Source: Bifidobacteriaceae bacterium (lineage in GTDB: Bacteria > Actinomycetota > Actinomycetes > Actinomycetales > WQXJ01). Taken from it: a stretch of DNA of 11,421 nucleotides. The stretch's first letter is position 1. Every line of letters starts with the position of its first letter. The position numbers were made by a program, and so were the translations under genes. Positions 1 to 11,174 of this stretch are shown here, in pieces. The stretch is taken from NCBI GenBank assembly GCA_031258055.1, contig JAIRNM010000378.1, forward strand, positions 1-11,421, written 5' to 3'. The notes under the pieces are model-generated. The model did no database searches. It was not told the origin of the DNA and was given only the letters and a program-made list of their open reading frames with translations.

Positions 1-315
1 GCCTGATTCGCTGCCCCGTTCGCGCCTGGGTGCTGCGGCGCGGATGGCCAGGGCGGCCGCGACTACATGGACGCAGATCCCGGCCGCTGGGCAGGGGCAG
101 CTAGCCCGCGCCGGTCCGCCCGCGTCCAGGCTTACCGTGTATTCACCCACCTGGACCTGGCCCGAGCGACCGGACCATTGCTTGTCCCCTTCCAACCCTT
201 CGGGAAGCACCGCGGCCGGGGCGAACTTGGCCGCCCGGCGCACCAGCCCTGGACTGGCGAGTTGGGCCAAGGCCGAATCCTCCAGCCGCCAATAGACCTC
301 AGCCCAGCCGCTCAT
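1..315 (-). CDS. SWIM zinc-finger protein, N-terminal part (YehQ-type), cut by window edge
   Basis: Only the first 105 codons are in the window; the gene continues past position 1. The start is the ATG at 315..313. It overlaps the TGA of the VWA gene by 4 nt (ATGA), and a strong GGAGG lies 7 nt upstream (323-327). The visible protein opens with MSGWAEVYWRLED and carries C73-P-C75, five residues, then C81-V-H83. This is a complete CxCx(n)CxH SWIM zinc site, followed by an alanine-rich helix. SWIM domains are known to bind DNA or protein; the ligand here is unknown. As the last visible gene of the DUF4132-MoxR-DUF5682-VWA series it occupies the place of E. coli yehQ, which also encodes a SWIM protein. 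The SWIM call is read directly from the motif. The YehQ equivalence is inferred from context and the length cannot be judged. Confidence 0.85.
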   Translation of the reverse strand, partial: MSGWAEVYWRLEDSALAQLASPGLVRRAAKFAPAAVLPEGLEGDKQWSGRSGQVQVGEYTVSLDAGGPARASCPCPAAGICVHVVAAALAIRAAAPRRERGSESG

Positions 316-1430
316 CCCATGACCTCCGCCAGCCAGTCCGCCAACCGGTCTGGCGTCATGGCGCCGATCTCCATGCCGCGATCCGCTAGCAGTCGCGCCA
401 CATGCGGATCAAACACCGCCGCCGCTGATTCGTCCAGCGCGCCCAGGCCCAGCAAAGTGACTCCAGCGGCTTTCAACCGCCCGGCGGCCGCCACCAGTCC
501 TGCCACGGAGCCGCCCTCCTCGAAGTCGCTGATCAGCACCAACACCGTCCGCGCCGGTGTTCGCACCAGCCTCTCGCAGTACCGCAAGGCCCGGCAGATG
601 TCTGTGCCGCCACCCAACTGGGCGCCCATCAGCACCCCGACGGGATCTGAAGCCTGCTCGGTCAGGTCCACCACGGCTGTGTCGAACGCCAGCAACCGCA
701 CGTTGACGCCTGGTAGCGCCGCCAAGATAGACGCGCACACGGCGCTGTATAGCACCGACTCCGCCATCGATGCGCTCTGATCGACACACAGCAGCACATC
801 CCACTCAAGGCTGCGCCGGGCGCGCGCGTTGAACCGCAGCCGGTCCACCACCAAGCGTCCGGTTTCAGCGTCATAGTTGGCCAGGTTCGCCCGGATGGTG
901 GCCCGCCAATCGAGGTCTTGCGCCCGCGGCCGAAACGAGCGCCGGAACCGGTTGCGCCGCCCGCTGAACGCTTGCGCGAACCGGGTCTTTAGCCGCGCCG
1001 CAATTTGCTCCACCACCTTGGCGATTACCGTCCGCAGGCCCGCCTCCAACTTGGCGTCAATGCTCCCTCGAACCGTCAACAGCGCGGCGCCGAGTTCCGG
1101 ACTCGGCTCCAAGGAGTCGGCTGTCGCCGGGTCCGCCAGCAACTCCGTCAACCCGTAGCGCTCGACCGCCTTCGCCTGCATGCGCTCGAAGGCCGACTTG
1201 GGGAACAACTCACGGGTCCGCGCCAACCAGTTGATCGCCGTTAGCTGCGAGGGGTCGAGCGAACCGCCACCGCCCGGTTCCGGGCGCAGCCCCCGCTCCG
1301 CGTACTCCCGGTCGAACAGGTATCCGAGGGCCGTATCCAAATCAAGGTCGCGCGCGCCAAAGGCTTGGGCGCGGGGCAGAGCGCCGTCGGCGTAGCGCCC
1401 CAGCGCCAACCGCCACCGCCGTACGTTCAT
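312..1430 (-). CDS. VWA-domain protein with intact MIDAS, partner of MoxR ATPase (YehP-type)
   Basis: This 372-aa protein has an N-terminal helical half (about 1-200, with a basic arginine-rich stretch near 158-170) and a C-terminal von Willebrand factor A domain (about 208-372). The metal-ion-dependent adhesion site is complete: D217-Q-S219-A-S221 (DxSxS), T276 in GGGTD, and D302 in LVLISDF. There is no signal peptide or membrane segment, so it is probably cytosolic. VWA proteins encoded beside MoxR ATPases are known to act as their substrate-binding or adaptor partners through the bound Mg2+, as in CoxD/CoxE-like and RavA/ViaA pairs. The ATG at 1430 overlaps the stop of the DUF5682 gene by 4 nt (ATGA), with a purine-rich GGTGGAG just upstream, suggesting translational coupling. 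Length and neighbourhood match E. coli YehP. The substrate is unknown. Confidence 0.9.
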   Translation of the reverse strand: MNVRRWRLALGRYADGALPRAQAFGARDLDLDTALGYLFDREYAERGLRPEPGGGGSLDPSQLTAINWLARTRELFPKSAFERMQAKAVERYGLTELLADPATADSLEPSPELGAALLTVRGSIDAKLEAGLRTVIAKVVEQIAARLKTRFAQAFSGRRNRFRRSFRPRAQDLDWRATIRANLANYDAETGRLVVDRLRFNARARRSLEWDVLLCVDQSASMAESVLYSAVCASILAALPGVNVRLLAFDTAVVDLTEQASDPVGVLMGAQLGGGTDICRALRYCERLVRTPARTVLVLISDFEEGGSVAGLVAAAGRLKAAGVTLLGLGALDESAAAVFDPHVARLLADRGMEIGAMTPDRLADWLAEVMG

Positions 1431-3910
1431 TGGGCTCCACCCCCTCGGGCCCAGGCCCCGAGCCCGTCCGCCTCCAGCGACTCGAGCAGCGCCGCTTCGA
1501 CAGCTACGCCCAAGCGCAGATCTGCCTCCGAGACGTCTCCGGCGCCGGTCGCGATGTCCTGCGCCCCCAAGCCGGACAGCTTGGCGACTTGCTCCGCCAG
1601 CCGGGCGGTTTCGCGGGGACGGAGGCGCGCGAAGGCTAGGCGCAGTTCCGGCAGGAAGGCCAAGAACGCGGGCTCGTCCATGTCTCCCAGCGCCTGGTCC
1701 ACCACCTCGAACAGTTCCGGTGTGTGCAGGATCAGGTCGGGCGCGGCCCGCATCAAGCCCTGGAAGAACCGCATGGCCAGGGCCGGGTCGGCCCCTGGCG
1801 CGAATAGTCCGCGCAGCCGCGCGGCCACTTCGCCATCTGGCGCGGTGCCGTCGATCTCCGCGAAAGCCATCAGCGCCCCCGCCACGCCCGGCGCGGCGCT
1901 GCCGGAGCGCCGCAACCGGTCCAGCGACTCGCTCAGCTGAGCTGCCAGCTCGGCAGCGCCTACACCACTCGGAAACCCCGGCTCCGACAGTCCGTCCAGG
2001 AGGCCAATCAGTTCTCGCACGCCTATCATCGCCTCGACCGCTCGCTCCTCGGCATCCTCCGGGACATCCGCGCTTTGACCCACGAGGTAGACCAGTTGTG
2101 GCACCGCCCGTGCGACCAGCGCCTCTAGCTGCTGCGGGCGCGCCAGGTCCAACACTTCCGCCGCCCGCGTCAAGCCGAGCAGGCGTCGTGCCGCCCCGAG
2201 CACGGAACCCAAGTCCGAGTCTTGGCCGATCACCTCGTAGAGCATCTGCTCCAACGCCGGGAACTCGTCCGCTAGGCCGATCAGCGCCGCCTGGGCCACT
2301 ACCTCCGCCACCCGGTCCGAGCGCGGGCGCTCGTCCTCCTCGTCAGCAAGGCGGGAACGGAGGCGCTTGCGGGCGGCATCGGCCAAGGTGGCGCCGTCGG
2401 TGACCAAGGCCACCAGCGCCGCCTCAACCATTGGGGTCCAGGCGTAGCTCCACTTCTCCTGGGCGCGGCTCAGCGCCTCGCCCGCCGCGTAGTCGGGGCC
2501 GCTCAACCGCTGCGCGAAGCCCACGTCCAGAAATGCCATCAACCACAAGAACCGGCTCCGGCGCCGGGCGTTCGGTGAGCGGCGCAGATCCAGCGCGGTG
2601 GTCCTTGACTCCCCGCTGGACAAGTTGAACCGCAGATCAAGGGCGGTTTTTCGGGTCTCTTGGACAATCGGCGGAGCCGGGCAGCCGGGCGGGAGCCGAC
2701 CTTCCTTGTCCCCATTGAAGACTTTGGCCACGGCGCTTCGCAGGGCAGCGGGGGCGTCCGCACCGCCAGAGAAGCAGGACGTGCAGGCATCCAGCAGATC
2801 GGACCGGCCTGTGACCGCGTGACCGCGCAAGGCGGCTAGGCGTTCGGCCTGTAGCGCCGCTTCGATTACCTGGGCGGCTCCGACCGCCTCTGCCGTGCCC
2901 GCCGCCCCAGCCGTGCGGGCCACATCCGCCAGGCACTGCGCGCCCAACCGGCCGGCGGCACCGGTCGGCGCGTCCCACACGCGCTGCCGGTAGCCCGGCG
3001 CCGCGATGCCGGCGCCGTAGCCGGTCTGGGCGGCGAGCTGGCCCAAGCTGTAGCGCACCAGCCAAGCCCCGCCCAGCATGGTGTTTCGCCTTGGCTGCTC
3101 CTCTATCGCATTTTCCTCGGCTGGAGGCGGGGCGCCGGTCACGTCCAAAGCAACGGCCAGCGCCTCGGCGAGAGCCAGAGTGTGGAATCCGCCGGTCACC
3201 ACGACCAAAGAGCCCAGCGCTTGCGTCCGCCACCTCAGGATGTGGGCGGCCATGACACTTTCGCGCTGGACGGAGCCCTCCGCCTCCAATACCTCCGGTT
3301 CGTAGTCCAAACGCGCCAAGGTGCTCCACGCGAACACATCCCGGAAGAGCCTGCGGGCGTCCGCGTCGGCCCCGCGCAGTTCGAACAGATGGTCCCAGAG
3401 CTCGTCGTGGTCGCGGCAGTGCTCATGGCGGGCTAACTGGGCTAAGCTGCGGCTCTCCGCGTAATAGCGTTCGCCGCGCAACGCGGCCACACCCTCGCCG
3501 CTCTCAGAATCCTCCTCCGGGCTGGCATCAATGAAGGCGACGTGCGCCCCGCCAGCCGCTCCGTCCCGCAAGGCCACCCACTCCGGGGAGAAATCTGCCA
3601 GCGGGTAAAACACCGCCGACCCCTTCTTAGGCAGGCCCAGCACCGCTAGCGGTGGCTCCGCTTCGGGGTGGCACAGCAGGTCAAGCAGCGAATCGTATTC
3701 GGCTGGCCCCTCGATCAGGACAGCCTGCGGGGAAACGGCCTTGATCAGGTGGCGCACGGCTAGGGCACAGGCCGGGCTGTGGTGGCGAATCGGAGCGAAC
3801 CAGATGCCCCGAGCTTCAAGCCCATCCAGTAGCGCCAGCCCGCGCGCTAGCCGAGGCGGCGGCCCTTCGGCGCCAAGGCTGAGCCGGGGATGGGAAGCGG
3901 GAGACGCCAC
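1427..3910 (-). CDS. DUF5682 family protein (YehM-type)
   Basis: This is a large protein of about 827 aa. I place the start at the GTG at 3910, 13 nt after the MoxR stop, with a weak GAGAG 10 nt upstream. A TTG at 4018 would lengthen it by 36 residues, but these would only read through the MoxR gene in another frame and there is no well-placed ribosome site. The N-terminal third holds the recognisable DUF5682 blocks: IRHHSPACA (41-49), LIEGPAEYDSLL (65-76), FYPLADFSPEWVALR (101-115), AFIDAS (125-130), RESVMAAHI (216-224) and VVVTGGFHTLAL (236-247). The remainder is helical and alanine/leucine rich with no motif I recognise. No signal peptide or membrane helix is seen. The family has no settled biochemical role. 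The His/Glu-Gly-Pro/Gly-Gly-Phe-His pattern recalls EreA/ChaN/TraB-TIKI enzymes (inference). The position between MoxR and VWA genes matches E. coli yehM. Confidence 0.85.
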   Translation of the reverse strand: MASPASHPRLSLGAEGPPPRLARGLALLDGLEARGIWFAPIRHHSPACALAVRHLIKAVSPQAVLIEGPAEYDSLLDLLCHPEAEPPLAVLGLPKKGSAVFYPLADFSPEWVALRDGAAGGAHVAFIDASPEEDSESGEGVAALRGERYYAESRSLAQLARHEHCRDHDELWDHLFELRGADADARRLFRDVFAWSTLARLDYEPEVLEAEGSVQRESVMAAHILRWRTQALGSLVVVTGGFHTLALAEALAVALDVTGAPPPAEENAIEEQPRRNTMLGGAWLVRYSLGQLAAQTGYGAGIAAPGYRQRVWDAPTGAAGRLGAQCLADVARTAGAAGTAEAVGAAQVIEAALQAERLAALRGHAVTGRSDLLDACTSCFSGGADAPAALRSAVAKVFNGDKEGRLPPGCPAPPIVQETRKTALDLRFNLSSGESRTTALDLRRSPNARRRSRFLWLMAFLDVGFAQRLSGPDYAAGEALSRAQEKWSYAWTPMVEAALVALVTDGATLADAARKRLRSRLADEEDERPRSDRVAEVVAQAALIGLADEFPALEQMLYEVIGQDSDLGSVLGAARRLLGLTRAAEVLDLARPQQLEALVARAVPQLVYLVGQSADVPEDAEERAVEAMIGVRELIGLLDGLSEPGFPSGVGAAELAAQLSESLDRLRRSGSAAPGVAGALMAFAEIDGTAPDGEVAARLRGLFAPGADPALAMRFFQGLMRAAPDLILHTPELFEVVDQALGDMDEPAFLAFLPELRLAFARLRPRETARLAEQVAKLSGLGAQDIATGAGDVSEADLRLGVAVEAALLESLEADGLGAWARGGGAQ

Positions 3911-3923
3911 GGGCCAACAACTC

Positions 3924-5036
3924 TCAAGCGCGCCAGGCCCTGGCCGCGGATTGGAAGTCCTTCCAAGCGCGGCTGCGCCGGGCCCGCTCGCGGACCACCG
4001 TGTCGAAGTAGAAGTCAAGGCGGGCGGCGTCCTCCTGGTTATCCTTCAGCGCCACGCCCAGCAACTGCCGGGCCATCCCTCCGGCGGTGACTTTGCCGTC
4101 GCCCAGGTAGCGTGCTTCCAGGGCGGCGGCCACTGCCACGTTGACCGCCTCAGCCGTGGACATCACCGTCTCCGGGCGTTTGATAGACGCACCCTCCGCC
4201 GTGGAGCCTGACCGTAGATCCCTGAACGCCGTGACCAGCAACTCCAACACGTCGCGCTCCACCTGGACCGCGGCGCGCTGGCCGCCCAACTCTGCCTCAA
4301 GCTGCCGGGACACCAGTTCTACCTCGAAGGCGGGGTCCGCGATGGGCCGAACCGTCTCAAAGTTGAACCGCCGCTTCAACGCGGCCGACATCTCGTTGAC
4401 GCCACGGTCGCGGAGGTTGGCGGTCGCTATCACGTTGAAGCCCGGCCGGGCCGCGATCAGTGCGTCCGAGCCCAGCTCGGGGATCATCAACTGTTTCTCC
4501 GAGAGGATTGAGACCATAGTGTCCTGAATCTCCGGCGCCGCGCGGGTGATCTCCTCGAAACGCGCCACCGCGCCCAGTTCCATCGCCTGACAGATCGGTG
4601 AAGGCACCAAAGACCGGCGAGACGGGCCCTCGGCCAACAGCAGGGCGTAGTTCCAGGAGTAGCGGACGTGGTCCTCGGTGGTGCCAGCCGTCCCTTGCAC
4701 CGTCAGGTTCGAGTTGCCGCTGATGGCCGCCGCCAGCAATTCGGAGATCATGGACTTGGCGGTGCCAGGCTGGCCCACCAGCATCAGCCCTTGCCGACCG
4801 AGTAGCGTCACCACGCAGCGGTCTACCAGCGGGTCGTCGCCAAAGAACTTGCGGCTAACGCCCAGTGCTTCGTCGCCGATTACGAACGCCCGGACTGCCC
4901 GTGCCGTCAGCTTCCAGCCGGGCGGCGGCGCTTCGCCGCGCGACGCGTCCCAGGCGGCCAGGCGCTCCAGTTCATCCGCCTGTTTTACCTCCGCCGGCTG
5001 CCGCAATACCTGGACTTGCTCGCTGTCAGAATCCAC
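3924..5036 (-). CDS. MoxR-class AAA+ ATPase (YehL-type)
   Basis: This 370-aa protein hydrolyses ATP to remodel protein complexes, by family knowledge of MoxR AAA+ ATPases. Visible motifs are Walker A GQPGTAKS (88-95), a Walker B of unusual form, VARFEEIT (157-164), sensor-1 asparagine N207 in NVIATANLRDRG, and the arginine-finger region ALKRRF (219-224). The stretch SILSEKQLMIPELG (176-189) is the MoxR beta-hairpin insert. The start is a GTG at 5036 with GGGAG 7 nt upstream (5044-5048). It overlaps the end of the DUF4132 gene by 11 nt, so the two are probably translationally coupled. The C-terminal part (about 230-370) is the lid helical bundle. The protein is probably cytosolic and hexameric, working with the VWA protein two genes downstream. 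Sequence type and gene order agree with E. coli YehL. The remodelling target is unknown. Confidence 0.93.
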   Translation of the reverse strand: MDSDSEQVQVLRQPAEVKQADELERLAAWDASRGEAPPPGWKLTARAVRAFVIGDEALGVSRKFFGDDPLVDRCVVTLLGRQGLMLVGQPGTAKSMISELLAAAISGNSNLTVQGTAGTTEDHVRYSWNYALLLAEGPSRRSLVPSPICQAMELGAVARFEEITRAAPEIQDTMVSILSEKQLMIPELGSDALIAARPGFNVIATANLRDRGVNEMSAALKRRFNFETVRPIADPAFEVELVSRQLEAELGGQRAAVQVERDVLELLVTAFRDLRSGSTAEGASIKRPETVMSTAEAVNVAVAAALEARYLGDGKVTAGGMARQLLGVALKDNQEDAARLDFYFDTVVRERARRSRAWKDFQSAARAWRA

Positions 5037-8000
5037 TCTTGTTCTCCCAGTCCTTGTCGAATTGTCCTGCCTCAGCCACGTAGGCGTAGTCGCCGTAGGC
5101 CTCTGCTAGCAGCACGGGCGGTACCGCCGCCAACGCCAGGGCGGCGCCGTCGCGCGCGAAGATCAGCTTGTCGAGCGCAGCCGGGACTTGTTCCTCCGGC
5201 AGGACTGAGCCGGTGAATTCGATTATGGCCGTGATCTGGGCGGACGGGAACTCCTTGGAGTAGGTGTTGAACCAGCCGCCGTCCTCCGCCAGCCCTCTGG
5301 TATAGCCGCGTTTGACGGCGCGACCCCGGATGGCGAACGAGTCCGAGAACCAACCACGCCTGGTGGCGACCTCCGCTTCCCCCTCTGGCAGTGAGGCGGG
5401 ATCCGGCAGGTCCGGAGGCGGCTCGGTGAACTGGTCGAACAGCGGTTTGACCGCGTAGTCCGCCAAATGCGTGCGCCATTGCCGCGCCTCGTCCGCCGTT
5501 ACGACCGCCCGGTGGGCCAGCCGGATCTCGCCCGCCGGGGGAATCGACAGGTCGGCATCGTTCGCGTCGAGGAAGTCCCCCTCTGGCGTGGGGCGGAACA
5601 GGCGGGGCGCGGCTCCGCTCTCCGGGATGTGCGACCAGACCAGCGCGGACACTAGCTGACGCATCACCGGATGCCCAGCTAGTGACTCAAGCCATGTCGA
5701 CGCGTCCCAAGCGCGCCCGACGCACATCGCCTCGTGAAGCCGGGTCGTCTGCAGCGCTACGACCTGCTTCAACTCCTTCTTCGAGGCGCTGAGCTGCGCC
5801 TTCGCCTCCTGGACCAGCTCTTCCGAGTCGGCGGCGGCCGCCTTCGGCAGAGCGGCGACCGGCTTACCCGCCGGATTGGAGAGTTGGACTGCGAACGCCC
5901 CGGTCTTCGCCGACCGGCCAATCCGGCCTGTGAAGACCCTGGAGCCGTAGTCCAGGCGGAGCACACCGTCATCTTCGAAACCCGCTGTCTGGATGGTGCG
6001 GTCCGCCAAGTCATCCATGGACCAGCCCCTGGATTGGGCGATCTCCTCGGAAAGCTCGGCGGCGACAGCCCGGACCGTCGCCTGCTTGAACTTCCGGGCG
6101 ATGGACAGCACAAACTGGATCGCGGCCGGATCGGGGTTCTCAGATGCGGCCCGGACCAGCGCCTCAATCTGGGCGCGGCGCTTGGGGTAGGCGCGGATGT
6201 AGGCCTGCCCAGCGGCTAACACGCGGTGGCCGGGCGCGAAGCAGGTCAAAGCGAGCAGGCCTTTCTCCCCGATGGCACTGCCCAGAAACTCGCCCGCCTT
6301 CAGCCGCCTCAGTTCCTCGTAGACCTGGTCCCGGGTCATGCGACCCATGGTCTGGGCCCACTCGCTGTCTGGGTACTGCTTGGCTTCCGCCTGGCGCCCT
6401 TGGTACACCGCGTCCACGTTCGCGGCGGCGTATTCGCGCGCTTCCTGGTCGCTGGGCGTGGCGATATCCTGCGCCACCCAGGCTTCCAGCGCGAAGACGC
6501 CCAGGGCCTCCCGGCTGGGCTGGTCGAGCAGCGACAGGTACAGCTTGAACAGGCCGCCGCCCGCTGGGTCCTTCATCTTCACCGCCAGCACCGCCCACCA
6601 GCGGATAATCGCCGGGTCTACCGGGTCCCCGCTCGCCCAGCGGCAAGCCGGGAGCGCATCTAGCGGCAGCCACTTCATGCCGACCGGGGGCTTCTTGGCC
6701 AGCCCCTTCTCAGCCGCCGCGGCCAGGGCCGCCGGAGTCAAGTAGTCGGCGACGTCATCGCCCAAGGCGGCGAGCGCCGCGAGGATAGCGGCTTGGACCG
6801 GCTCGCTCCGCTCACTCTTTAGCGCCGCCCGCAAGGCGGGCAGACCAGCCTGGCCACCGATCGCCGCGATCCAGCGGGCGGCCTCGGCGCGCATCTCCGA
6901 CTTGCTCGCCTCCAGGCCGCCCACCGCAATTGATCCCGCCTCCGGCCGCTTGGCCAAAACCGCTTGGGCCTGCGCCCGTAACGCCTTGGACCCTCCCAGC
7001 GCCAGTTTTGCCAGCACTGGCGTCAGCCGCGATGGTGGAACGGGCATCCCACGCAAGATCCTCAGCGCCTCAAGACCCGGTTCCCCCGGAGTCGACGGCT
7101 TCAAGGCCTTTTCCAGCAGCTCGGGGTGCTCGGCGAAGAGTGGCCAAAGGCCTGCGGCGGGATACGGCTTGCCATACCAGCCCTGGGTCAGGATAATCTC
7201 CCCCAACTCTGCGGCAATGTCTCCCTTGGCCGCCTTGTACCCCGCCTTCTCCACCTCCGCCGCCACTGCCCGCAGATCTGCGCCGGAGATGGGCCCGGCA
7301 CCGCTACTCAGATCTCCCCGGTTGATCCGCCGACCGCCTTTGCCATCAGGGACCAGGATTAGGCGGGCCAGCGCCGTAGCCTTGATGGACCCGATCACCC
7401 CTCGCAGCACTAGTGGGGGCAGCCAGTCCAGCGCCTTGGGCCGGACCCGGGATTCGCCGTCCAGCCAGGCGCGAATCGGCTCCGCGTCACGGCTCGAAAA
7501 GCCCTTGGCTTCTGCGTAGCGCTTCCGGAGCCACTTGGCTTGGGGGTACTCCAGGGCCGCGGCTTTGGCGTTTTCCACCGACTTGTCGATAGCGTCCCCC
7601 AACTTGCGGACGAAGTCCTCCGCCAGCGGAGCGAACTCCTCTGGCGCCACGGGTGGGATCTCCGGTTCGACCTCGGATACGGTCCGTGTCGCTTCCACCC
7701 GGCCCAGCACCTGCCCAATCACATCGCGCCTGCGCTGGGGACCGCCCTTCGCGAGTTCTTCCTCAAGGAGACGCCTGCCCGCCTCCCCCATGGCCGCCGC
7801 TGCCTCCGCCAGGCTGGTCAAGACTGGCCCATTGGCCTGCTCCAGCCCGGCAGCCACCAATTCCCCGTGCTCTTTACCAGGCAACCGGGCCGCTGCCGCC
7901 AGCGCCGCATCGCGGACCTGCTTGGACCGATCAAGCGCCCATTGACCTAGCGGTCCCGCCAGCGCCTCGCAGAACTCCTGGTAGAGGGCTATCCAACGCA

Positions 8001-8724
8001 GTGCGCGCGCCCGTTGTCCAGCCTCCAACGGCGCCAACAAGCCTGGCAAGTCCCCAATCACCTGACCAACCACGCGGGCGAGGGCCCGGGGCCCTGACCC
8101 CCCTAAGTCCGCCTCCCACTGCTTCAGATGCGCGTCGAAGCGCCAGGCGTCCTGTGTGGTCAGCTTGAGGAACGTGAACGCAATGATCTGGTCGGTCTCC
8201 GGTGGCCGGTATCCCACCGATTCCAAAGCGCCGACTTCGAAGGTTGGGGCCCAGTGCTTCGGTGAGTCGCTCCAGTACTGCCGGTTCTCCGACAGCGCCG
8301 CGAACCATCTGGGCACGGTGGCAGGCCAGGCGTCTGACAGATCGGCCGCCTTGGGCAAGGACAAGACCTGGCCCAGGCGCACCCACTGTTCCGGGGCCAG
8401 TTGGCTATGTTTCCGGCGCAGTTCCTGCAATTGGTTGCCGACCGTCCAGCCGGGAACGCCGTCCTCGAGGGCCTTGACTTCAGCTGGCCCCAGGTTGGCC
8501 AAATCCTCCGCCCGCCTGCCCGTCAGGGTGTATTCCAGCACCAAATCCGCCAAGTCCCGGCGCTCGTCTCGCAGCCGTTCGAACAACTTGGACAGTTCCT
8601 TAGGCGCACGCCTGAACGACTTCCCAACCGACCGCTTCAACAACACCGTCGCCTCGGTTCCCGCCCGGACAGGGGATGGAGCAGGCCGACCCGGTCCAGG
8701 CGCCTCCGGTGCCAGCCGCTTCAA
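5026..8724 (-). CDS. DUF4132 domain protein (MolR/YehI-type)
   Basis: This is a giant 1232-aa protein, close in size to E. coli YehI (about 1200 aa). The C-terminal DUF4132 domain begins near residue 900 with WSMDDLADRT followed by TAGFEDDGVLRLDYGSR. It continues through DLSIPPAGEIRLAH, and the end carries KRGYTRGLAEDGGWFNTY (about 1130-1150). The middle has two alanine/leucine-rich stretches resembling HEAT-type helical repeats (about 260-335 and 560-660), fitting a scaffold. No catalytic motif, signal peptide or membrane helix was recognised. The start is uncertain. TTG at 8724 follows an in-frame TAG by one codon and has AGGGGGG 9 nt upstream. GTG at 8646 has GAGG 5 nt upstream and would drop a Pro/Gly/Ala-rich 26-residue leader. 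It is the first gene of the five-gene operon and overlaps the MoxR gene by 11 nt. Its molecular function is unknown. MolR was an early name from an E. coli molybdate-regulation study and should not be taken as function. Confidence 0.88.
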   Translation of the reverse strand: MKRLAPEAPGPGRPAPSPVRAGTEATVLLKRSVGKSFRRAPKELSKLFERLRDERRDLADLVLEYTLTGRRAEDLANLGPAEVKALEDGVPGWTVGNQLQELRRKHSQLAPEQWVRLGQVLSLPKAADLSDAWPATVPRWFAALSENRQYWSDSPKHWAPTFEVGALESVGYRPPETDQIIAFTFLKLTTQDAWRFDAHLKQWEADLGGSGPRALARVVGQVIGDLPGLLAPLEAGQRARALRWIALYQEFCEALAGPLGQWALDRSKQVRDAALAAAARLPGKEHGELVAAGLEQANGPVLTSLAEAAAAMGEAGRRLLEEELAKGGPQRRRDVIGQVLGRVEATRTVSEVEPEIPPVAPEEFAPLAEDFVRKLGDAIDKSVENAKAAALEYPQAKWLRKRYAEAKGFSSRDAEPIRAWLDGESRVRPKALDWLPPLVLRGVIGSIKATALARLILVPDGKGGRRINRGDLSSGAGPISGADLRAVAAEVEKAGYKAAKGDIAAELGEIILTQGWYGKPYPAAGLWPLFAEHPELLEKALKPSTPGEPGLEALRILRGMPVPPSRLTPVLAKLALGGSKALRAQAQAVLAKRPEAGSIAVGGLEASKSEMRAEAARWIAAIGGQAGLPALRAALKSERSEPVQAAILAALAALGDDVADYLTPAALAAAAEKGLAKKPPVGMKWLPLDALPACRWASGDPVDPAIIRWWAVLAVKMKDPAGGGLFKLYLSLLDQPSREALGVFALEAWVAQDIATPSDQEAREYAAANVDAVYQGRQAEAKQYPDSEWAQTMGRMTRDQVYEELRRLKAGEFLGSAIGEKGLLALTCFAPGHRVLAAGQAYIRAYPKRRAQIEALVRAASENPDPAAIQFVLSIARKFKQATVRAVAAELSEEIAQSRGWSMDDLADRTIQTAGFEDDGVLRLDYGSRVFTGRIGRSAKTGAFAVQLSNPAGKPVAALPKAAAADSEELVQEAKAQLSASKKELKQVVALQTTRLHEAMCVGRAWDASTWLESLAGHPVMRQLVSALVWSHIPESGAAPRLFRPTPEGDFLDANDADLSIPPAGEIRLAHRAVVTADEARQWRTHLADYAVKPLFDQFTEPPPDLPDPASLPEGEAEVATRRGWFSDSFAIRGRAVKRGYTRGLAEDGGWFNTYSKEFPSAQITAIIEFTGSVLPEEQVPAALDKLIFARDGAALALAAVPPVLLAEAYGDYAYVAEAGQFDKDWENKSGF

Positions 8725-8816
8725 ACTCTAGCGCCCCCCTACGACAGCCTTCCAACCAGCGCTTTCGCTTTGCCCGCCGCCCCGCTGCCCCGGTTCTTGG
8801 TGTCCGATGCCGTCCG

Positions 8817-8833
8817 CCCACCGCAGCGGCGGG
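8817..8833 (-). other. GC-rich hairpin between the RHH antitoxin gene and the DUF4132 gene
   Basis: Read on the minus strand, a 7-bp stem CCCGCCG / CGGTGGG (one G-U pair) closes a CTG loop, 26 nt past the stop codon of the RHH gene. There is no T-tract, so it is at best a weak or Rho-assisted terminator. The rest of the 8725-8858 gap shows no clear -35/-10 pair. TAGAGT lies directly before the TTG at 8724, with TTGGAA 19 bp further upstream, but this is a poor promoter match. Confidence 0.3.
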
Positions 8834-8858
8834 GGTCGCCAAAGCCGGGTCGTCGCAA

Positions 8859-9188
8859 CTACCGGCTAGCAAGGACTAGGCGCAGCCCCTCCCGCACCAG
8901 GTCGCTCTGGGTGCGGCCGGTGCGCTCGGCCAGACTCTCCAACTCCGCGTACTCCGCGTCCGAGACCCGCGCGCGAACCACCGGCGACCGGCCCTTGCCC
9001 GGACCCAACCTGGGCCTGCCGCCCAGCGCCCGCACGGCGGCCCCGCGGTCGGACTCGCCAGTCACCCACATCAGGTCCCGCCTGGCGGCCTCGGTCGCCG
9101 ACCGCCCACGCAGCACCGGGCCCGAGCCGGGCAATTCGCCCCGTTCAACCAGTTCTTGGTAATACCGTTCCCCCGGTGTCTTGGTCAT
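8859..9188 (-). CDS. Ribbon-helix-helix antitoxin-like protein (C-terminal RHH), partner of BrnT-like toxin
   Basis: In this 109-aa protein the recognisable part is C-terminal. SPVVRARVSDAEYAELESLA (about 67-86) supplies the DNA-binding beta strand and first helix, and ERTGRTQSDLVREGLRLVLA the second helix of a ribbon-helix-helix (CopG/Arc/MetJ-like) fold. The N-terminal 65 residues (MTKTPGERYYQELVERGELP...) are charged and probably bind the toxin. The ATG at 9188 overlaps the stop of the upstream small gene by 4 nt (ATGA), typical of a toxin-antitoxin pair. RHH at the C-terminus and antitoxin second in the operon are the arrangement of BrnTA-type systems, the reverse of the mazEF-type pair next to it. 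It probably represses its own operon. The RHH fold is fairly secure; the antitoxin role is inferred from pairing and architecture. Confidence 0.7.
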   Translation of the reverse strand: MTKTPGERYYQELVERGELPGSGPVLRGRSATEAARRDLMWVTGESDRGAAVRALGGRPRLGPGKGRSPVVRARVSDAEYAELESLAERTGRTQSDLVREGLRLVLASR

Positions 9189-9460
9189 CGTTCCTCGCTA
9201 TCAGGCCACAAATCTCTGAAATTGTCGGTCAAATCGAAAAAGTGAAACACCCAAACCTCGCGTCGCGCCGGTGTCAACCTGGCAATCAACTCAAGGCGCC
9301 TAGTCGAACCTTCGTGCGGATGCCCCGCGAAAGCTATCGTGACGCTGCCCGGCTCGGAGTTGAGCACACGGCGACCAAGCGCGTGGTCTATGAGATAGAT
9401 TGCTTGCTCTTTGTCAAAGCCGTGCCGGTAGGCGGCATCGTCCAACTCCAGAGGGCTCAT
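9185..9460 (-). CDS. BrnT-like small toxin candidate
   Basis: This small protein is 91 aa from the ATG at 9460. The same frame is open to a GTG at 9496 (103 aa), with another GTG at 9469. I prefer 9460 or 9469 because the GTG at 9496 has only a badly spaced GAGG. Also, a possible -10 (TACCTT, 9487-9482) lies downstream of it. Visible features are RHGFDKEQAIYLIDHALGRRVL (an N-terminal His-Gly followed by a helix), a beta region VTIAFAGHP, then RRLELIARLTPARREVWVFHFFDL. This helix-then-strands layout, with the conserved His-Gly, is like BrnT/DUF4258-type RelE-fold RNases, but the usual C-terminal Ser-Ala-Arg is replaced by FHFFDLT. It precedes and overlaps the RHH gene by 4 nt. The toxin call rests on layout and pairing more than on sequence identity. 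Confidence 0.5.
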   Translation of the reverse strand: MSPLELDDAAYRHGFDKEQAIYLIDHALGRRVLNSEPGSVTIAFAGHPHEGSTRRLELIARLTPARREVWVFHFFDLTDNFRDLWPDSEER

Positions 9461-9523
9461 ACGCAACACCGCACACCCCGTAAGGTAGCACCACACCGGC
9501 CTCGGGAACAGTCGGAGTCAGCG

Positions 9524-9557: not shown

Positions 9558-9815
9558 GTGAAGACTGGAGTGTCGCTGCCGGATGACCTGTTTGGACAAG
9601 TGACCGCTTGCGCCCGGGAGCAAGGCGTGACGCGTTCCGCCTGGATCGCCCGGGCGGCTGCGGAGCAGGTGCGCCGCCAGCAAGAAGACCAGGTGACGGA
9701 AGCGGTCAACCGGGCAGTGGCGGCGGAATCACCCGCCAGCCGGGCCGAACGCGAGAGCATTGCCGCTGAGGCGCGCGGGCGCATGGAGTCGCTGGCTGAA
9801 GGCGAAGACTGGTGA
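9558..9815 (+). CDS. RHH antitoxin of a MazEF-type pair
   Basis: This 85-aa protein has an N-terminal ribbon-helix-helix. KTGVSLPDDLFGQVTACAR supplies the DNA-contacting strand and first helix, and GVTRSAWIARAAAEQVRRQQ the second helix (to about residue 42). A charged C-terminal tail (VNRAVAAESPASRAERES...EGEDW) is of the sort that wraps around MazF toxins. The start is GTG at 9558, directly downstream of the candidate -10, with no room for a ribosome-binding site, hence probably leaderless. The last codon overlaps the mazF start (GTGA), so antitoxin is made first and coupled to toxin. It is expected to neutralise the MazF encoded downstream and, with it, to repress the operator at 9534-9550. 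RHH-type antitoxins paired with MazF are common in actinobacteria. Confidence 0.8.
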   Translation: MKTGVSLPDDLFGQVTACAREQGVTRSAWIARAAAEQVRRQQEDQVTEAVNRAVAAESPASRAERESIAAEARGRMESLAEGEDW

Positions 9816-10153
9816 GCGTCCGGGGCAGGATCTACTGGTACAGCTTCGGGTCGCCGCAGGGGATAGGACCGGCTAAGCGCCGACCAGTGGTGGTGGTCCA
9901 ATTCCAGTCGTTCAACAATTCCGCCATCGGCACAGCCATGGTCGCCAGTTTGACGAGCCGGCTGGACGCGGCAGCTTATCCCGGAAACGTGTTCCTGCCG
10001 ACCTCAGCTACAGGATGGCCGAAAGACTGCGTAGCCCGCACGTCGGAGCTGGCGACTGTCGACCGGCGCGACCTGGACAGGCCTGTTGGCCAAGTCCCTC
10101 CCCTGATGATGCGCGACATCGACGCTGGTCTGCGCCTTGCCCTCGACCTGTGA
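9812..10153 (+). CDS. mazF: MazF/PemK-family mRNA interferase toxin
   Basis: This 113-aa protein has the usual length for the family. Family blocks are all present: RGRIYWYSF (4-12), KRRPVVVVQ with R24-P25 (22-30), FNNSAIGTAMVASLTS with T48 of the LTS motif (34-49), GNVFLP, and the C-terminal CVARTSELATVDRRDL. The arginine and threonine named are the residues that act in RNA cleavage in characterised MazF enzymes. The toxin should cut single-stranded mRNA at a short recognition sequence that cannot be predicted from this alone. The start is the GTG at 9812, overlapping the antitoxin stop by 4 nt, with GAAGG 9 nt upstream. A GC-rich hairpin follows 31 nt after the stop. No frameshift or missing key residue is seen, so it is probably functional. 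Confidence 0.88.
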   Translation: MSVRGRIYWYSFGSPQGIGPAKRRPVVVVQFQSFNNSAIGTAMVASLTSRLDAAAYPGNVFLPTSATGWPKDCVARTSELATVDRRDLDRPVGQVPPLMMRDIDAGLRLALDL

Positions 10154-10207: not shown

Positions 10208-10450
10208 GTGATTGCGAAGGCGTCCAAGGCGGGTTTCCACCGGTTGGCCCAACGCTTCTTGCCGCATCCTGTGGGGTCCAGGGAGCGGGTCACCAGGTAC
10301 AGGCACTTCAAGGCGGCGGTGACGGATTGGTCCAGGTACAACGCCCGCAGGTGGCTGGCCGCGAACGCCTCCGCGCCGCCCAGGCGTCCGGGTCCGGCGC
10401 GGCCGAAGGCGCGGCCCCGGAAGTACTCTTATGACGCGCTGAAGGTCTTG
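10208..10450 (+). pseudogene. Decayed fragment of an actinobacterial integrase-type transposase
   Basis: The 10154-10530 stretch has no intact gene. One plus frame keeps pieces of a transposase N-terminal region: AAVTDWSRYNARRWLAA (residues 36-52 counted from 10208), then a proline/arginine linker, then RPRKYSYDALKVL (69-81, ending at 10450). In intact relatives as I recall them, a GWSRDNARRRL-like helix-turn-helix segment and a KYSYDALKVL-like block precede the DDE catalytic core. Here similarity stops right after that block. No DDE core or matching second half follows, and the piece before residue 36 looks scrambled. The frame stays open to 10693 but runs antisense through vapC, so that part is not real. 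I cannot assign the IS family. No terminal repeats or target duplication were found. Confidence 0.5.
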
Positions 10451-10519
10451 CTGAGACGGCATCGTGCATCGCAGAGGGCGAAAAGTGACCCGTTCTCCCC
10501 TTTGGGAGGCTGGGCTCAA

Positions 10520-10551
10520 ACGCTCTGGTGTTACGGCGCGTCCCAGAGCGT
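10520..10551 (-). terminator. Hairpin at the 3' end of vapC
   Basis: A perfect 9-bp inverted repeat ACGCTCTGG (10520-10528) / CCAGAGCGT (10543-10551) encloses a 14-nt loop containing the vapC stop codon. On the minus strand the stem is followed by a short TTTG run, so it may end the vapBC transcript. The weak T-run and the overlap with the last codons keep the call tentative. The neighbouring mazF/transposase side transcribes towards it, so it could serve both directions. Confidence 0.4.
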
Positions 10552-10935
10552 GCGGAGCCCGGACAGGTCGGCGAACGCCTGGTCGCGGCTGACTAGGGTC
10601 ATGCCTCCCAGCAGCGCCTGGGCCGCTAGGAAGCGGTCAAAAGGGTCGCGGTGGTCCCATGGCAAACGCCCCGCGAGTATTGCCTCTTGGTGAGTGATTG
10701 GCAGCGGCGCGGCGCCGACCTGACGCACCCGGGCCGCCCACGTCTGGGCGCCGGCCAGGTGTGCAGCGGTGGGGAGCTTGCCAATCCGGACCTTGGTCGA
10801 CACCTCCATGGCCGAGGCGGCAGACACCGCCAGCCGGTTGCGCGCATCGGCCAACGCGGCTAGCAAACCGCCCGGGAGTTTCGACGGCTCACCGACCAGC
10901 CACAGAAAGGCATGCGTGTCGAGAAGAAGGTTCAT
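10531..10935 (-). CDS. vapC: VapC-type PIN-domain ribonuclease toxin
   Basis: This 134-aa protein has standard PIN-toxin length. It begins MNLLLDTHAFLWLV, the hallmark of one VapC subgroup. The four acidic active-site positions are visible: D6, E44 (in SAMEVSTK), D97 (in HRDPFDRFLAAQA, which also carries D100) and D118 (in LVSRDQAF). These coordinate Mg2+/Mn2+ for RNA cleavage in characterised VapC proteins; the RNA target is unknown. The ATG at 10935 overlaps the stop of the upstream Phd-type antitoxin by 4 nt (ATGA), so toxin synthesis should depend on antitoxin translation. A hairpin spans the stop codon. The reading frame is intact with all catalytic residues, so the toxin is probably active. 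This DTHAFLW subgroup is commonly paired with Phd/YefM antitoxins. Confidence 0.9.
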   Translation of the reverse strand: MNLLLDTHAFLWLVGEPSKLPGGLLAALADARNRLAVSAASAMEVSTKVRIGKLPTAAHLAGAQTWAARVRQVGAAPLPITHQEAILAGRLPWDHRDPFDRFLAAQALLGGMTLVSRDQAFADLSGLRTLWDAP

Positions 10936-11174
10936 TCCCAGGCCGCCAGTTCCTTTTCTGGCAACTCCTCGAAGAACGGCGAGTCCAAAGGCAGGCGCAC
11001 CGAGGGGTCCGCGCCGAACACCCTGGCTCCCGCCGAAGCCTCGCCCTCAGACACAGGCACAAGCCTGACACTCGGCACTCCAGCGCGGGCGATGATCACT
11101 TCTTCCCCCGCCTCAGCCCGCGCCATCAGGCGCGAAAAGTGCGTCTTCGCCGCCAGCGTGTTGATGATCGCCAT
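10932..11174 (-). CDS. Phd/YefM-type antitoxin of the VapC pair
   Basis: This 80-aa protein has an N-terminal part, MAIINTLAAKTHFSRLMARA to VIIARAGVPSVRLVPV (1-41). It has the Phd/YefM pattern: strand, helix with K-T-H-F-S-R-L, then GEEVIIARAGVPSVRLVPV. The C-terminal tail ends in FFEELPEKELAAWE, a typical toxin-binding segment for DTHAFLW-type VapC partners. The ATG at 11174 follows the -10 hexamer by 6 nt, so transcription probably starts at the A of the ATG (leaderless). The AAGGAA touching the ATG is too close to serve as a ribosome site. Phd proteins repress their own promoters, and a palindrome lies between the -35 and -10 here. It overlaps vapC by 4 nt. Confidence 0.87.
   Translation of the reverse strand: MAIINTLAAKTHFSRLMARAEAGEEVIIARAGVPSVRLVPVSEGEASAGARVFGADPSVRLPLDSPFFEELPEKELAAWE

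Follow-up and report, generated by a model that had tools for sequence, protein, structure and literature searches.

The DNA analysed here (the window) is a stretch of 11,421 nucleotides that makes up an entire contig (C118; JAIRNM010000378.1) of a Bifidobacteriaceae bacterium, the assembly of which (GCA_031258055.1) comprises 2.39 Mb and is 77% complete. It carries five genes arranged head to tail on the minus strand in the order DUF4132-MoxR-DUF5682-VWA-SWIM, which correspond to yeh genes of Escherichia coli. The cassette they represent is a core of four genes combined with an exchangeable large subunit, either DUF4132 or DUF5691, and the N-terminal domain of the DUF5682 protein looks like the Tiki/TraB hydrolase superfamily, a resemblance that is new here and is based on profile comparison, motif order, the modelled fold, and conserved residues. 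There is, in our judgement, about an even chance that the products form one ATP-driven machine, in which a MoxR–VWA motor would remodel or gate a Tiki-fold hydrolase, to which the SWIM protein and the large subunit would bring the substrate.

Gene layout and relation to the yeh genes

The features of the cassette are listed below; the first three genes and the VWA gene are defined by open reading frame, Pfam match, and alignment with E. coli.

5026-8724, minus strand: DUF4132 gene, YehI-like (TTG start, 1232 amino acids)
3924-5036, minus strand: MoxR AAA+ ATPase of the YehL type (GTG start, 370 amino acids)
1427-3910, minus strand: DUF5682 gene, YehM-like (GTG at 3910, 827 amino acids)
3011-3868, minus strand: candidate Tiki/TraB-like domain of DUF5682, approximately residues 15-300 (profile, model, and residues H43, H44, E67, D128, E177, R216, M220, G240, and H243)
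1430-3010, minus strand: remainder of DUF5682, predicted to be mostly helical, approximately residues 301-827 (secondary structure of the model; its matches are generic helical repeats)
312-1430, minus strand: VWA_CoxE protein, YehP-like (372 amino acids)
1-315, minus strand: SWIM zinc-finger protein, YehQ-like (N-terminal 105 codons only; the gene is cut by the contig end)

Pfam places all five proteins in the families named by an earlier reading made from the letters alone (the sequence-only reading), with E-values of 9.5e-29 (DUF4132), 1.9e-35 (AAA_5), 1.1e-106 (DUF5682), 2.7e-49 (VWA_CoxE), and 3.9e-05 (SWIM); the cut-off of DUF5682 (PF18934) is passed with 358.3 bits against 26. In NCBIfam, none of the five has a match above cut-off. 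The junctions of -11, +13, -4, and -4 nucleotides proposed by that reading were reproduced from the open reading frame coordinates if MoxR and DUF5682 begin at the GTG codons at 5036 and 3910, the latter being a choice that fits the +13 gap within a frame open from 4018 to 1427. A scan of positions 8600-9000 found neither a sigma-70-type promoter nor a terminator, and a search of the organism's own, 77% complete assembly with a full-length relative returned no other piece of the SWIM gene. Two further SWIM-domain matches occur in the same assembly (G000), on contigs C52 and C153.

The gene order in E. coli MG1655, yehI-yehK-yehL-yehM-yehP-yehQ, matches that of the window, as does the direction, and five pairwise matches bear out the yeh-like content. 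Identity amounts to 48% between MoxR and YehL, 42% between VWA and YehP, 27% between DUF5682 and YehM, and 30% between DUF4132 and YehI over the C-terminal 311 columns, while the SWIM fragment matches YehQ weakly (29% over 83 columns, two-sequence E-value 1e-04). All five families are common to the two operons, the E. coli one differing by an extra open reading frame, yehK, and by a 684-nucleotide gap from yehI to yehL. Upstream of yehI, E. coli also has yehF, which is a WGR gene, and yehH, a pseudogene of the DUF4132 type. Some match to yehL–yehQ is present in 5,301 of 5,426 E. coli genomes, and at least 80% of the query is covered in 5,162 of the 5,426.

In keeping with the view that no function is established, no study of the function of this system, including the E. 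coli yeh operon, was found in the literature searched, which was largely without subscription papers and in which the terms DUF5682, DUF5691, PF18934, PF13569, and PF18944 were absent. The accessible text of the papers offers a name for YehL as a subfamily of MoxR ATPases (PMC3893208) and incidental mentions, among them a transposon in the DUF4132/yeh region of 184 clinical isolates (PMC9334617) and passing references in PMC6442406 and PMC3589462; the SWIM protein of PMC3747172 belongs to another operon.

The window MoxR contains GQPGTAKS at position 88, RFEEITR at 159, ATAN at 204, and RRFNFE at 222, patterns found across loci in 77, 75, 47, and 72 of 78 cases, respectively; VWA contains DQSAS at 217, GGGTDI at 273, and SDF at 301 (79, 67, and 63 of 79), and SWIM contains CPCPAAGICVH at 73 (73 of 77). 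We take the first set to be the nucleotide-binding motifs of an active ATPase and the second to be a MIDAS-type site, which is consistent with the predicted pairing of a MoxR motor with a MIDAS partner. A PDB sequence search returned nothing for VWA and only midasin for MoxR. An AlphaFold model of DUF4132 covering gene residues 34-1232 (mean predicted local distance difference test, pLDDT, 85.9; predicted template modelling score, pTM, 0.73) takes the form of a long HEAT/armadillo-like solenoid over model residues 1-876, approximately gene residues 34-909, and so lends support to the scaffold role suggested for this protein. HEAT/alpha-repeat matches were also obtained by profile (HEAT_2 in Pfam at 4.3e-05, under cut-off), Foldseek returned mainly generic helical repeats for the whole model, and the DUF4132 match itself lies in the C-terminal part (residues 953-1100).

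Co-inheritance, fusions and two architectures

Conservation was followed in 80 DUF5682 loci, the best 80 of at least 584 confirmed matches, which were selected for their similarity to an alignment of the window type and with the help of two DUF5682 peptide patterns, a choice that favours class I. Families were counted at E <1e-8 on the strand of the match within fetched flanks of up to 10 kb, with neighbouring frames of one family merged. All five genes stand on one strand in 69 of the 80 loci. If D denotes DUF4132, M MoxR, U DUF5682, V VWA, and S SWIM, the order is D-M-U-V-S in 42 loci (including one U-V fusion and one locus that has an additional D on the opposite strand), M-U-V-S-D in 18, V-S-D-M-U in 6, and M-U-V-D-S in 3. 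Among the remaining 11, L003, L006, L045, L054, and L079 are cut by contig ends, L053 has D on the other strand, and L064 is without D. The last four are broken sets that count against the proposed machine: DUF5682 stands alone in L044 and L052, MoxR-DUF5682 stands alone in L050, and L058 is U-V-S without MoxR despite 9.6 kb of upstream sequence. To the same side belongs L121 (genome G315), where a YehL-type MoxR occurs without DUF5682.

Two surveys were not chosen by likeness: one of 149 Actinomycetota genomes and one of 199 genomes that belong to the same phylum as a Janthinobacterium, itself included. Since some of the genomes are related, the counts are not independent and are given without a probability; that the DUF5682, MoxR, DUF4132, and DUF5691 searches covered the same 149 genomes is judged from equal settings and equal handles. 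DUF5682 is present in 10 of the 149, the window's own included, with 15 match rows representing 14 genes (one is split in two). The same 10 genomes contain 14 genes for YehL-type MoxR scoring at least 364 bits; the window protein reaches 604 and the next match 78 (E up to 1e-20), which, along with its 48% identity to YehL, places the window MoxR near YehL and far from other MoxR proteins. By the listed coordinates, all 14 DUF5682 and MoxR genes are adjacent, one to one. In the second survey, DUF5682 occurs in 10 genomes (11 genes) and YehL-type MoxR in 11 (12 genes), and all 11 DUF5682 genes adjoin such a MoxR. The window conforms to this pattern, having DUF5682, VWA, and the truncated SWIM gene beside MoxR. 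Judged by the 69 full sets and by the adjacency of 14 of 14 and 11 of 11 pairs, the genes are co-inherited more than chance would provide.

DUF5682 and VWA are fused in 4 of the 120 homologues listed out of 880, as well as in L010 (Nocardioides albus), L090, and L092, and SWIM is fused to DUF5691 in L091. Because DUF5682 and VWA form one polypeptide in some loci, direct contact between them is suggested. That the genes travel together for shared regulation only, with no complex formed, we regard as very improbable: the permuted order in some lineages would suit such an explanation, whereas both kinds of fusion, the overlapping junctions, and the strict MoxR–DUF5682 pairing argue against it. 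The sequence-only reading had proposed a physical complex; conserved content and order stand, the pairing and the fusions favour contact, and the complex itself is, we infer from these patterns, plausible.

A second architecture (class II), SWIM-DUF5691-MoxR-DUF5682-VWA, has DUF5691 in place of DUF4132. It was found in 8 of the 14 Actinomycetota loci (L083-L089 and L091) and in 4 of 8 fetched loci of the second survey (L122-L125), on one strand in 9 of these 12, with SWIM and DUF5691 on the opposite strand in L083-L085. DUF5691 is above cut-off in 8 of the 149 genomes, always about 2 kb or less from the cassette MoxR, and under cut-off in two more. DUF4132 is above cut-off in 6 of the 149: in five it is near the cassette (three cases adjoin MoxR, and two have the domain 5-6 kb upstream), and the sixth, G094, is without DUF5682. 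G123 also has two additional DUF4132 genes, one distant from its cassettes and the second, on the opposite strand, about 5 kb away from a cassette. Overall, 8 of the 14 loci have DUF5691, 5 have DUF4132, one (L095, G023 near 8.31 Mb) has neither, and none has both; therefore, the cassette is a core of four genes plus one variable large subunit, and the five-gene set originally described holds as to content and order but not as to a fixed fifth gene. The SWIM proteins of both classes are related (probability 95.0 in a profile comparison, for 141 columns that lie outside the YehQ zinc finger), while no relationship between DUF5691 and DUF4132 was detected by the same means (2.6).

Two loci have unusual compositions. 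L095 encodes a 1161-residue VWA protein, MoxR, and a 1394-residue frame with a DUF5682-like part, whose E67 motif is LELC, the form also seen in TraB; no DUF4132 and no DUF5691 was found nearby. L128 (11219-18987) has two tandem WGR-DUF4132 proteins directly after MoxR-DUF5682, and no VWA or SWIM was detected in the fetched 19 kb.

A MoxR tree was built from 77 rows: the window, E. coli, and 75 of the 80 loci. In it, the window protein falls among Actinomycetota, with its highest identity at 78% (L003). Actinomycetota (14 rows), Bacillota (19), and Pseudomonadota (30) each form one group, while Planctomycetota do not. The divergent E. coli YehL is an extreme, very long branch outside Pseudomonadota; it had no group label in the test, and its placement is unsure. 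With one MoxR group for each of these three large phyla, the sampled loci suggest a cassette that is old at the level of phyla, of which K-12 appears to be a divergent example rather than the type.

A Tiki/TraB-like domain in DUF5682

The AlphaFold model of DUF5682 (mean pLDDT 89.2, pTM 0.86) has an N-terminal alpha/beta core like that of known Tiki/TraB members. In profile comparisons of DUF5682 with TraB, 33 PrgY-type rows gave 91.1, three PrgY-type rows 68.3, and a later mixed set 83.6. A VWA control first gave 95.3 with an alignment that held DUF5682-VWA fusions and other overlong frames, and 0.2 when redone with 20 rows under 420 residues. With the Tiki/TraB/ChaN proteins DUF5682 shares the modelled fold, the H-x23-E spacing, and the residue order of PrgY-type TraB; it differs by its large helical remainder and its tie to a MoxR–VWA motor. 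H43/H44, E67, E177, and H243 are conserved in the alignment and can be compared with the 2His/2Glu catalytic set described for the superfamily in the accessible text of PMC6254334. Across 28 diverse rows the hydrolase-like residues are retained, the conservation of the SPEW and TGxFHT residues being partly due to selection, since the loci were picked with two DUF5682 peptide patterns.

A number of observations pull in the opposite direction. The profile match varies with the TraB type, falling to 2.1 with GumN/YbaP-type rows and 29.5 with the first mixed set. Single-protein Pfam matches of DUF5682 members are weak (best E 0.0064 for ChaN and 0.014 for TraB); TraB (PF01963) is matched weakly by 4 of 40 members, and DUF5694 and an exonuclease domain are each also matched by 3 of 40. 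DUF5682 remains below the Pfam cut-offs of TraB and ChaN and is not filed under PF01963, and the window N-terminus has no TraB match. With the whole model Foldseek returned mainly generic helical repeats; used alone it put a TraB chain 27th (E 0.15), and that chain topped the list only with a second-look aligner. PDB sequence searches with DUF5682 profiles gave one match at E 1.8 in one case and none in another. The first GX2H motif of the window protein is P-I-R-H, with Pro for Gly, and the second is G-G-F-H; strict GX2H at both histidine motifs is what we take to be the definition of TraB_PrgY_gumN (PF01963), from which the window protein departs. The first motif reads G-[IV]-R-H in YehM and all 12 class II rows. 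No activity of DUF5682 is known from the literature searched. Finally, according to the parts of the sources available, a Tetrahymena member of the superfamily is an accessory subunit of complex IV (PMC10060162) and the 2His/2Glu set is said to be missing from a related toxin domain (PMC6254334), so superfamily members need not be enzymes.

The sequence-only reading had cast DUF5682 as the effector; the putative Tiki/TraB-like domain gives this role a basis and refines it rather than plainly confirming it. As for DUF5694, the best of its weak matches among the 3 N-termini has E 0.0032; this family, whose function is unknown, may also be related to Tiki.

A putative machine and its alternatives

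In the proposed machine, the MoxR AAA+ ring and the VWA adaptor, a CoxE/NorD-like pair, would grip and remodel, or gate, DUF5682. The latter would serve as a dedicated enzyme, perhaps a peptidase or esterase, in which a long helical part comes after the Tiki/TraB-like hydrolase fold, and the SWIM zinc-finger protein together with the class-specific large subunit (the DUF4132 solenoid here, DUF5691 in the sister class) would recognise or present the substrate. A motor gating a Tiki-fold hydrolase is the simplest reading because DUF5682 is the sole enzyme-like product besides the ATPase and is sometimes fused to VWA. For MoxR–VWA pairs in general, the accessible text of PMC7159879 proposes that VWA captures the target and MoxR reshapes the bound complex, and that of PMC13036017 proposes that NorQ twists the NorD linker, so allowing metal insertion.

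NorQ-NorD and CoxD-CoxE likewise combine a MoxR AAA+ protein with a VWA adaptor; NorQD serves nitric oxide reductase (PMC13036017, as far as its available text goes), whereas in the window the pair is accompanied by a Tiki-like protein, a SWIM protein, and a solenoid. It is possible, if on the unlikely side, that the MoxR–VWA pair matures, by metal insertion or assembly, a client encoded outside the operon, like RavA-ViaA or CoxD-CoxE, with the Tiki-like domain as a non-catalytic or cofactor-binding adaptor. Many studied MoxR–VWA pairs are maturation factors according to the sources, as partially available; the window VWA is CoxE-like (VWA_CoxE is its best Pfam match); and haem binding is described for ChaN, the Pfam neighbour to which most members have a match. 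Weaker hints, from partially available text, are that yehM is among the mutated genes in a copper-evolution study (PMC12409786) and that a Deinococcus DUF4132 protein may take part in molybdopterin biosynthesis (PMC8533742). Against maturation speak the retained hydrolase-like residues and the occurrence of DUF5682 as one polypeptide with VWA. There is no client metalloenzyme among the Pfam matches in the window, which ends inside the SWIM gene, and a recurrent metalloenzyme beside the cassette was not seen, but this screen was confounded by shadow reading frames, the neighbour clustering being dominated by class II genes and, where loci are rich in GC, by such frames, so that it permits no further partner to be claimed or excluded.

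Beyond the cassette, the window contains toxin-antitoxin-type genes, identified by Pfam:

8862-9188, minus strand: ribbon-helix-helix protein
9558-10150, plus strand: weak ribbon-helix-helix match, then a PemK/MazF-like toxin
10534-11174, minus strand: PIN domain with a Phd/YefM antitoxin

The open reading frame 9188-9496 and the open frame 10208-10690 (plus strand, 161 amino acids) have no Pfam match.

These neighbours, the patchy distribution (10 of 149 and 10 of 199 genomes), and the presence of MoxR–VWA cores in proposed conflict systems (PMC7159879, accessible text) could be taken to favour a conflict or anti-phage role, in which a MoxR–VWA switch would free the DUF5682 effector upon sensing an invader, as proposed for MoxR–VWA ternary systems. 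The latter do comprise MoxR, VWA, and further components, as in the window; their third component is VMAP, iSTAND, FtsH, or a beta-propeller, none of which is among the window Pfam matches (the Pfam coverage of each is unchecked), and bpMoxR, matched over 49 residues, scored 26.1 where its cut-off is 27. SWIM, DUF5682, DUF4132, and YehL are absent from the main text of PMC7159879, as far as it was available. PADLOC gave no match for the four larger window proteins, only 38 residues of a 566-position model for the SWIM fragment, and 0 of 6 for E. coli or related proteins. Near-fixation of yehL–yehQ in E. coli likewise disagrees with such a role, as do the single MoxR groups of three large phyla, though E. 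coli YehL itself falls outside, and the rarity of DUF5682 in phage records (1 of 50,697) and plasmid records (36 of 72,556, some of them chromosome-sized). The defence role entertained by the sequence-only reading is not supported on these grounds, and we consider it decidedly unlikely. An unannotated phage-collection record from human faeces (MT835988.1, 11382-12746) encodes a partial DUF5682 relative covering 57% of the query at 27% identity.

The bolder form of the motor–hydrolase reading, unlikely as we hold it to be, is that of an energy-dependent hydrolase of a new kind: a MoxR–VWA AAA+ motor would feed or unlock a Tiki/TraB-fold peptidase, as a chamberless counterpart to Clp, Lon, and FtsH found from Actinomycetota to E. 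coli, with the interchangeable DUF4132 and DUF5691 setting the substrates. The near-fixation of yehL–yehQ in E. coli, yet with no function in the literature searched, makes this operon worth attention, and a candidate catalytic domain with named residues renders it testable by point mutants. If true, the proposed mechanism would link MoxR–VWA motors to the Tiki superfamily and may represent a new type of ATP-coupled hydrolase.

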